NCBI GenBank assembly: GCA_003576765.1
Contig: QEVP01000023.1
Span: 1-64,000, forward strand
DNA: 64,000 nt
Source of the DNA: Pseudomonadota bacterium
GTDB lineage: Bacteria; Pseudomonadota; Alphaproteobacteria; Rhizobiales; Xanthobacteraceae
Reading direction: 5' to 3'
Part shown: piece after piece, positions 13,941-16,425 of the stretch
Position numbering within the stretch: the stretch's first letter is position 1
Layout: each line of letters starts with the position of its first letter
Position numbers and translations under genes: made by a program
Notes under the pieces: generated by a model
Told to the model about the DNA's origin: nothing
The model's input: only the letters and a program-made list of their open reading frames with translations
The model's database searches: none

Positions 13941-14936
13941 TCAGCGCCCTCCCGTCATCACGTCGGCCAGCGTCGGCCAGGATGCAGGCGCGGTGTCGCA
14001 AGGCGGCGCGTCGGTGCGCTCGGCGGCGCGCAGTTTGGCCGAGCGGGCGCGCGGATTGGCGGCGACCTCGGCCGCGCCGGCGACGACCGGGCGCCGCGTC
14101 AGCAGGCGGAAGCTTGCGGGCACGGACGGCGCATCCGGCAGATGCCGCGAACCGCCGCTGCGCTTGGCACGCGCAGCGAGGAAGGTCTTGACGATGCGGT
14201 CCTCCAGCGAATGGAACGACACCACCGCAAGCCGGCCACCCGGCTTCAACACCTGTTCGGCGCCACGCAGCGCCGTCTCCAGCTCGGTCAGTTCCTCGTT
14301 GACCAGAATGCGCAGCGCCTGAAAGGTGCGCGTCGCAGGATGGATGTCGCTCGGCTTCGAACGCACCACGCGCGCCACCAGATCGGCGAACTGCCGCGTC
14401 GTGGTGATCGCGCCGTCGCGGCGCGCTGCGACAATGGCGCGGGCAATCGCGCGCGAGTGCCGCTCCTCGCCGTAAAGATAGATGATGCGGGCGAGATCCT
14501 GCTCCGAGGCCCCGGCGACGACATCGGCCGCGCTCGGCCCCTCACCCCCCATGCGCATGTCGAGCGGACCGTCGAGGCGGAACGAGAAACCGCGCGCCGC
14601 CTCATCGAGCTGCATCGACGACACGCCGATATCCATCACCACGCCGTCGACCTGATTTGCGCCTTCGGCGCGGGCGACGGCGGCGAGATTGGAAAAGCGG
14701 TCCTCAATAAGTGTCAGCCGGTCGTCGAACGCATCGACCAGCGCAAAACCGCCGGCGATGGCGTTACGATCGCGGTCGATGCCGATGACCCGGGTGCCGG
14801 CATGCGCCAGAAGCAGGCGGCTGTAACCGCCGGCGCCGAAGGTCGCGTCGATATAGACACCGCCCGCACGCGGTGCGAGCGCCGCTGTCGCCTCTGCGCC
14901 CAGAACGGGAATATGGCGCGCCGCACCGTCAGCCAT
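13941..14936 (-). CDS. rsmH: 16S rRNA (cytosine1402-N4)-methyltransferase RsmH
   Basis: SAM-dependent methyltransferase (formerly MraW) that N4-methylates C1402 in the ribosomal P-site region of 16S rRNA. The 331-residue product starts HIPVLGAEA and has the SAM loop [11 protein letters not shown]. It contains [21 protein letters not shown] and the conserved C-terminal [10 protein letters not shown]. The start at 14936 has a GGCGGAG Shine-Dalgarno about 9 nt upstream. It is the first gene of this division operon; mraZ, which usually precedes it, is missing. Confidence 0.97.
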
Positions 14937-15130
14937 GGGCGCACGGCTCCGCCTGATGCCGGCCTTCCGGCCGCGCGCCGGCCACGATTTTCGCTGCGCG
15001 AACCCAACGCCGGCCACGTCGGTCCGCCGCCGCAAAATCCCGCATCGATGGAGGGGCGCTGCCATGGGAAGTGTCGGAGACCATCGAAAACCGCAGCCGC
15101 TGCACGAAAATGTCGGCTTTTCACCTTTGA

Positions 15131-15150
15131 TTAACGGTGGTTAGCGTTAA
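15131..15150. promoter_or_regulatory. TTAACG/CGTTAA inverted repeat, possible CtrA-like site
   Basis: TTAACG and CGTTAA separated by 8 nt, about 195 nt upstream of rsmH. Within it TTAA-N7-TTAG is one mismatch from the CtrA consensus TTAA-N7-TTAA. CtrA control of division genes is known in alphaproteobacteria, but the match is imperfect and a chance occurrence is possible. Confidence 0.3.
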
Positions 15151-15259
15151 GAAAGCGTTCACGCCCTGCGACGATATCGTCTCGCATTGTCGGTAGCGGC
15201 GCTTTGGACGCACCTTGGATTGTGCGGCGTTGCCCACAGCACGCGTTGCACCGCAGGCC

Positions 15260-15330
15260 AGTGGTCCAATTCTAACATTTGCATCCCGTTTCAGCAGATC
15301 CTGTGCAAATGTTAGAATTAAAGGACCACT
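15260..15330. repeat. Long hairpin element A
   Basis: Left arm 15260-15283 (AGTGGTCCAATTCTAACA...) pairs with right arm 15304-15330. Pairing is complete over 24 nt except for a three-base AAA bulge in the right arm. The loop is 20 nt. It is AT-rich against its surroundings. Confidence 0.85.
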
Positions 15331-15345
15331 AGCAAATATAGGTTT

Positions 15346-15423
15346 CTAGTGGAGCTTTGAATTTGACATTCGCTTCCCGACTCGCTGCTACGCAGATAGC
15401 GAATGTCAAATTCGCTCCACTAG
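15346..15423. repeat. Long hairpin element B
   Basis: Left arm 15346-15374 (CTAGTGGAGCTTTGAATT...) pairs with right arm 15398-15423. Pairing is complete except for a three-base bulge in the left arm. The loop is 23 nt. The arm aligns to element A over 27 positions with about 19 identities, so A and B are diverged members of one family lying 15 nt apart. Confidence 0.85.
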
Positions 15424-15573
15424 TTGCCGGGATAGTAACAAACGCGTGACGTTCGCTGACCCGGAGTCCGGCCAAGGCGCGAACGAAAGGCGCGAACGAT
15501 GTGCGGCGTGAGCGGTTGATAGGCCGCGACCGGGCTTCGCGCCTGATGGTCCTGCCGGGGTTTTGAGTTGTCG

Positions 15574-16425
15574 ATGTCGAGAGGGCCGTCAGCGCCACCG
15601 CCTGCAAGAGCGCCACGCCGCGTCATCCCGGCCTCGTGGTATTCCGACCTGCCGAAGTTCACCCCTGATTCGTCGGTGGTGTCGGAGGTCACGCCTTCGG
15701 CCAATTTCGGCGAGCGCCGCGAGGCCCGGCAGCCCGACATGATCGTGCTGCACTATACCGGCATGCCCGACGCCGAAGGGGCGGTGATGCGGCTGTGCAA
15801 GGAGGGCAGCGAGGTCTCCGCGCACTACATCGTCATGGAAGACGGCGGCGTGCTGCAATGCGTGCCGGAAGCCATGCGTGCCTGGCACGCCGGCGAATCG
15901 TTCTGGGCCGGCGAGACCGACATCAATTCCTGTTCGATCGGCATCGAAATCATCAACCGCGGCCACGACTGGGGCTATCCCGACTTTCCGTTGCGCCAGA
16001 TCGCGGCGGTGATCGCGCTGTGCCGCGGTATCATCATCCGCCGCGACATCCCGCCCGAGCGGGTGCTGGCGCATTCGGACGTCGCGCCCCTTCGCAAGAT
16101 GGACCCCGGCGAAAAATTCCCGTGGCAGGCGCTGGCTAATTCCGGCGTCGGGCATTGGGACTGGCCGGCGCCGATCGCGCCCGGCGACAGCCTCGCGCCC
16201 GATGCCGAGGGCGACGCGGTACGGACGCTGCAACAAAAACTCGCCGCCTACGGCTACCGCGTGCCGGTCGATGGCCGCTATGACGCCGACACCGCCAAGG
16301 TGGTCACCGCGTTCCAGCGCCATTTCCGGCCCGAGCGTATCGACGGCATCGCCGACCCCTCGACGCAAGCCACCCTCGACAACCTGCTGGCAAGCCGAAC
16401 GGCGGCCCGCCGCGGCACCGCATAA
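15574..16425 (+). CDS. N-acetylmuramoyl-L-alanine amidase with peptidoglycan-binding domain
   Basis: Amidase_2 (AmpD/AmiD-like) zinc enzyme that cleaves the bond between MurNAc and L-Ala. The 283-residue product has the N-terminal catalytic domain with HYTGM (zinc His), GIEIINRGHDWGYP, and LAHSDVAPLRKMDPG (second His and Asp). A C-terminal PG_binding_1 domain of about 60 residues follows (DAVRTLQQKLAAYGY, PVDGRYDADT). No clear signal peptide is visible, so a cytoplasmic recycling role is as likely as a periplasmic one. I chose the ATG at 15574 over a TTG two codons earlier. It is divergent from the dcw operon. Confidence 0.9.
   Translation: MSRGPSAPPPARAPRRVIPASWYSDLPKFTPDSSVVSEVTPSANFGERREARQPDMIVLHYTGMPDAEGAVMRLCKEGSEVSAHYIVMEDGGVLQCVPEAMRAWHAGESFWAGETDINSCSIGIEIINRGHDWGYPDFPLRQIAAVIALCRGIIIRRDIPPERVLAHSDVAPLRKMDPGEKFPWQALANSGVGHWDWPAPIAPGDSLAPDAEGDAVRTLQQKLAAYGYRVPVDGRYDADTAKVVTAFQRHFRPERIDGIADPSTQATLDNLLASRTAARRGTA

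Follow-up and report, generated by a model that had tools for sequence, protein, structure and literature searches.

A paired-hairpin repeat beside rsmH in an alphaproteobacterium has IS630-type ends, is very probably a MITE, and belongs to a family with a candidate CcrM methylation site in one terminus

The window analysed here is a stretch of 64,000 nucleotides from a contig of a Xanthobacteraceae genome. Within it, rsmH and a gene encoding an N-acetylmuramoyl-L-alanine amidase are transcribed divergently, and the gap between them contains a pair of long hairpins, upstream of rsmH by approximately 320 bp and of the amidase gene by 145 bp (Table 1). An initial annotation of the DNA had placed the hairpins correctly, in a promoter region shared by these two genes; rsmH lies on the minus strand and the Amidase_2 gene on the plus strand. 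The gene mraZ usually sits ahead of rsmH. Here it is absent from the interval between the amidase gene and rsmH (14940-15567), and no match to MraZ (PF02381) was found in the recovered 74% of the genome, the result on which a relic of MraZ interrupted by the element was rejected as an explanation.

Table 1. Features of the paired-hairpin locus and its two neighbouring genes, in window coordinates
Feature	Position	Strand	Description
rsmH/mraW	13941-14936	-	PF01795, 3e-97; neighbour, outside the element
Whole copy of the putative paired-hairpin MITE	15258-15423	+	166 bp including CTA/TAG flanks; body GTGG...CCAC at 15261-15420
Hairpin A	15258-15332	+	10 bp, AAA bulge at 15320-15322 on the 3' arm, inner stem of 15-16 bp, variable loop; from fold and compensatory changes
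Hairpin B	15346-15423	-	Mirror-image unit: 10 bp, TTT bulge at 15356-15358 on the 5' arm, 16 bp; from fold and compensatory changes
Linker between A and B	15333-15345	+	13 nt, AT-rich, CAAATATAGGTTT
Outer terminal repeat, hairpin A	15261-15286	+	GTGGTCCAATTCTAACATTTGCATCC; IS630 TIR type
Outer terminal repeat, hairpin B	15395-15420	-	GTGGAGCGAATTTGACATTCGC...
Left TA, putative target duplication	15259-15260	.	CA in the window copy, TA in most copies (copy comparison)
Right TA, putative target duplication	15421-15422	.	Within CTAG
Terminal nt 8-12 of hairpin A	15268-15272	+	AATTC in the window copy; GANTC in most copies
Sole GANTC remaining in the window copy	15379-15383	+	GACTC, loop of hairpin B
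N-acetylmuramoyl-L-alanine amidase gene	15568-16425	+	PF01510, 2e-33; PF01471; neighbour, outside the element

The presence of two hairpins, as first annotated, is borne out by folding: positions 15240-15440 have a predicted energy of -90.3 kcal/mol, compared with -48.5 +/- 4.2 kcal/mol for shuffled sequence (z -9.96, with 0 of 200 shuffles as low). The initial annotation further described a tandem pair, 15 nt apart, in which each hairpin has a three-base bulge at the same distance from the arm end. Each bulge does lie 10 bp from the foot of its stem, but the two are on opposite arms, so that the hairpins are mirror images and the pair is inverted; the spacing measured between them is 13 nt. 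The resemblance of the arms, put at about 19 matches over 27 positions, holds in substance, as 17 to 19 of 28 positions agree and the lower figure is reached by 15 of 200,000 shuffles. The element is also AT-richer than its surroundings, with a GC content of 44% against 66% in each 500-bp flank.

Four full copies of the unit occur in this 2.4-Mb, 74%-complete genome, the three others being 81-93% identical; the arms are thus not unique to the locus but belong to a mobile family, a possibility raised in the initial annotation. Among 61 relatives, 12 carry the unit, ranging from one partial match to more than 20 copies, and many near-complete genomes of the same family are without any copy. Loci with the exact pattern were found in named Xanthobacteraceae, Nitrobacter, Afipia, Bradyrhizobium, Mesorhizobium, Methylocystis, Stappia, Pleomorphomonas and others, and plasmids of Aminobacter, Martelella, Bradyrhizobium, Ochrobactrum and Rhizobium also carry the element. 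No copy was found in phage records, and a search of Rfam gave only microRNA matches at chance level.

The hairpins recur as pairs, a possibility that had been raised for this locus. A structural scan of the fetched loci, some of which overlap so that the counts are not all independent, recovered 487 hairpin units; neighbouring units were 12-15 nt apart in 196 cases and had one CTAG in common in 22, and no other spacing below 40 nt was seen between neighbours among the scanned loci. The linker is likewise 12-15 nt long in 45 diverse copies, and the outer ends of the element, as defined from 62 aligned copies, are sharp at CTAG. The two hairpins are two halves of one element. The design also occurs with other arms: taking the window pair as type 1, there is a type 2 (GTGTGGC/GTGTCCC), a type 3 (GTGC-type) and a pair in Roseibium (GTCA/GTGT). 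At one locus (L180:4082-4574) six hairpins form a chain in which a type-1 pair lies beside a type-3-like pair that itself contains a type-1-like pair.

Comparison of the 45 diverse copies revealed that the arms have diverged while remaining palindromic, as the initial annotation had proposed from the window copy. Across these copies 97.5% of cells are paired, and both sides have changed in 30 of 51 base pairs (15 of 25 in hairpin A and 15 of 26 in hairpin B); when partners were slid by 1-3 columns as a control, at most 9 pairs had two-sided changes and at most 38% of cells were paired. A fold of such stability, together with strong covariation, could in principle mark an RNA element, such as a terminator, mRNA stabiliser, RNase III site or leader RNA, that is selected on the rsmH or amidase transcript. 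This explanation appears very improbable, since the copies are dispersed in unrelated contexts, no U-tract terminator is present, and G-T pairs do not exceed A-C mismatches (24 versus 39, with hairpin B read on the strand equivalent to A). The lack of a G-T excess gives no indication that RNA was selected, whichever strand is read, and RNA-level selection was set aside on this ground. The same counts speak for pairing at the level of DNA, or for repair between arms, over RNA.

The ends of the element point to a transposase of the IS630 family. IS630 transposase genes in two other genomes (G032 and G030) are bounded by CTA followed by GTGGATCGCGTCTGACATTTGAATCCC and CTA followed by GTGGATCGAATCTAACACTTGG, and the 377-aa transposase is assigned to IS630 by NCBIfam (NF033545, 1.5e-78) and by Pfam. 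The hairpin-A end of the window copy is identical to the IS630 ends of G032/G300 at 17-20 of 26 nt, a level attained by 0-6 of 200,000 shuffles, and the hairpin-B end matches the 5' end of the G032 IS630 at 17 of 26 nt (4 of 200,000 shuffles). The other pair types have counterparts as well: the IS630 ends of G015 (GTGTCC...AGTTCG) match the type-2 pair, and IS630 elements of GTCA type match the Roseibium pair at 23 of 26 nt. Empty sites were read from nested insertions at four loci away from the window copy (L063, L236, L209 and L188); for the window copy, the relatives listed included no congeneric genome to supply one. Removal of the type-1 pair and one TA at L063 leaves a sequence that aligns without gaps to an uninterrupted type-2 pair at 163 of 165 positions (99%), and removal of the nested type-1 pair and one TA at L236 leaves a gapless alignment of 160 of 167 positions (96%) to an uninterrupted pair; the nested hosts at L209 and L188 gave lower figures, 81% and 73%, with their best-matching uninterrupted pairs. 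The mobile unit is therefore the pair, and its target is the TA of CTAG.

The repeat is thus very probably a MITE with IS630-family ends, being short, dispersed, devoid of a transposase gene, bordered by terminal inverted repeats common to autonomous IS630 elements, and flanked by a duplicated TA. A resident IS630 transposase would bind the outer arms of hairpins A and B and would move the element, as a two-hairpin unit, by cut and paste into the TA of a CTAG, duplicating the TA. The inner arms appear to be inverted copies of the same terminal repeats, so that each end would be able to pair with itself; the folded form is probably DNA (a hairpin or cruciform) and not RNA. No transposase of the matching IS630 type was found in the recovered part of the genome (74% complete) or in several copy-rich relatives, and for this reason the partner is inferred from other genomes. 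At L261:106-1220 in G007, an IS630 with another terminal repeat (GAGCGTTTTCC) has entered a type-2 hairpin precisely at its CTAG end, and such ends are thus landing sites for other IS630 elements as well.

Two other enzymes were considered for the movement of the element. An inverted pair of hairpins with a tag at its foot resembles a REP dimer, the units occur in clusters, and the flanks at first look had no visible duplication, all of which would suit an element of REP/REPIN type mobilised by a RAYT (Y1) transposase. The tag here, however, is CTAG and not GTAG or CGTC, the copy-rich genomes G018 and G024 contain no Y1 transposase, and ends of this kind were found at no Y1 locus; with termini that match a DDE-type IS630 and a TA that is duplicated, the REP/RAYT reading is already refuted and retains almost no likelihood. 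The second candidate was a partner of the IS427/IS5 type, to which the YTAR target of IS711 had pointed; it was dropped when 0 of 30 IS427-type loci examined proved to have GTGG-type ends.

If movement by an IS630 transposase is accepted, the sequence of the ends may also bear on its timing. GANTC is the methylation site of CcrM, and the CcrM mark governs the cell cycle of the host. The sequence of both ends was obtained for 28 distinct alphaproteobacterial IS630 elements, all flanked by CTA and TAG. The 3' end, downstream of the transposase, has GANTC at terminal nt 8-12 in 25 of the 28 (N being A in 10, C in 7, T in 4 and G in 4, with nt 3-7 and 13-20 variable), and the 5' end, at the transposase start, has it at nt 21-25 in 15 of the 28; GANTC starting elsewhere in these ends is rare. 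Two alphaproteobacterial IS630 elements are without GANTC at nt 8 of either end. Nine IS630 copies retrieved with the same query from IMG/VR viral contigs, two of them alike, have the nt-8 site in 9 of 9 and the nt-21 site in 8 of 9. Transposase genes of this clade occur on such catalogued viral contigs at up to two per contig (L424-L437). Among relatives in other classes of Pseudomonadota, 1 of 9 has the sites (Fisher p 1e-5), and that one falls inside an alphaproteobacterial clade of the tree. Independent host contrasts on the tree number only 5-6 (3 in favour and none opposed, p 0.25), and the link between GANTC and an alphaproteobacterial host is consequently not phylogenetically tight. 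Hairpin A of the type-1 MITE has GANTC at nt 8 in 91 of the 112 distinct copies, and hairpin B has it there in none; of 8 type-2 copies, 7 have it on one side and none has it on the opposite side. The genome carrying the window copy has a CcrM-like gene, a 376-aa ORF with a RAMA domain (1e-18) and a DPPY motif.

This placement of GANTC in the ends suggests that jumping is timed to DNA replication. Dam (GATC) control of IS10 transposition is established (PMC10073500, citing Roberts 1985). The alphaproteobacterial elements repeat the Dam/IS10 arrangement with another enzyme, having a methylation site in one of their termini and a second close to where the transposase begins. In IS10 and IS50, both under Dam control, an adenine-methylation site likewise lies in one terminus and close to the promoter of the transposase; they differ in pairing GATC and Dam with IS4-type transposases, as opposed to GANTC and CcrM with IS630. 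We lean towards the view that CcrM gates transposition of the alphaproteobacterial IS630 clade and of the paired-hairpin MITEs via hemimethylation, as an independent counterpart of Dam/IS10. Passage of the replication fork would leave GANTC hemimethylated and so permit transposase expression and end recognition, with the gating site at nt 8-12 of one end only and, in IS630, often a second at nt 21-25 of the promoter-side end. Nothing linking CcrM to IS630 was found in the literature of a library without most subscription journals.

GANTC might instead be part of the transposase binding motif only and unrelated to CcrM, an alternative that we regard as less likely than not and that competes with the gating, not with the MITE reading. 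In some non-alphaproteobacterial relatives this position is indeed taken by a similar motif, G-T-N-Y-C, and GA.TC could be a protein contact instead of a methylation target. A binding motif, however, accounts poorly for an N that takes all four bases, changing six times on the tree while GA.TC is kept, and for an nt-8 site at one end only, though both ends must be bound and the other end is often a single base away from GANTC at this position (GACGC, AAATC). The alphaproteobacterial elements, moreover, add exactly the methylatable A and T, and the pattern is replicated in another collection, that of the IMG/VR contigs. With a cell-cycle methylation site conserved in the ends of an IS630 clade, CcrM timing of transposition to DNA replication becomes directly testable.

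Several families of short repeats resemble the element described here. The RIME of Sinorhizobium, attributed to Osteras (1995), reportedly comprises two palindromes in one unit, with RIME1 being 108 bp long. A 108-bp two-palindrome repeat of S. meliloti pSymB (L375:34491-34598), which fits the description of RIME1, also ends in CTAG and GCTC. It is shorter than the window element (108 versus 166 bp) and has GAGC instead of GTGG ends and another linker; identity of the window element with RIME1 was rejected on the different ends of this RIME1-like repeat. Two-hairpin repeats with CTAG/GAGC ends that fit descriptions of RIMEs occur on pSymB at this position and at L377:15671-15778 and L377:25538-25662, and suggest that RIMEs, too, are MITEs of the IS630 type, though with another sequence at their termini. 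The Correia/NEMIS element of Neisseria is a TA-flanked MITE with long terminal repeats, in which it is like the present family, but it is a single fold-back unit without paired hairpins. CIR repeats of Caulobacter and Brucella consist of two stem-loop arms and a linker, with TA termini and GANTC in one arm, and the mechanism of their mobility is listed as undetermined (Delihas, PMC2229807); Bru-RS of Brucella are palindromic repeats of approximately 105 bp (PMC2229807, PMC10800456). Compared by description, CIR agrees with the window family in its two-arm architecture and TA ends, whereas CIR and Bru-RS are shorter (approximately 105-110 bp versus 166 bp) and the GANTC of CIR is at the terminal loop instead of at stem nt 8-12. 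RIME, CIR and Bru-RS, set beside the window family by description, are probably additional families of IS630 type built to the same plan, because the architecture of CIR is alike, the RIME1-like repeat has CTAG/GCTC ends, and IS630 elements with GAGC ends exist.

The RUP of Streptococcus pneumoniae, as reviewed in PMC2229807, is a short intergenic non-coding repeat associated with IS630-Spn1, with ends that match IS630 and TA at the insertion site. It is like the window element in being non-coding and in these ends and this site, but is a single 107-bp unit that folds end to end; the window element has two inverted bulged hairpins, a 13-nt linker, several matched IS630/MITE types, and, in its family, GANTC at one end. 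A likely enzyme partner, insertion site and mobile unit can now be named for widespread two-hairpin repeats of alphaproteobacteria, a class in which the mobility of the best-known relatives had been listed as unexplained. If CcrM gating is true, it may also account for the GANTC sites that have been reported in CIR repeats since 2003.

At the window locus itself, the initial annotation had set the hairpins at the head of the dcw operon, in a promoter region shared by rsmH and the amidase gene. No promoter-like or terminator-like site overlapping the window element was found, and dcw regulation by the element was abandoned as an explanation for this reason; copies of the family elsewhere adjoin unrelated genes, for example plasmid-borne genes for ABC transporters. 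Nothing supports a connection with the dcw operon, because the element is a dispersed insertion beside unrelated genes, without such an overlapping site and with stems in which G-T pairs are not favoured. With its left CTAG mutated and the nt-8 GANTC of hairpin A lost by mutation to AATTC, the window copy looks like an old insertion, for which a role in the expression of rsmH or the amidase gene is neither supported nor excluded. Just downstream of the element, a 13-mer (AAGGCGCGAACGA) is perfectly duplicated in tandem at 15474-15499.
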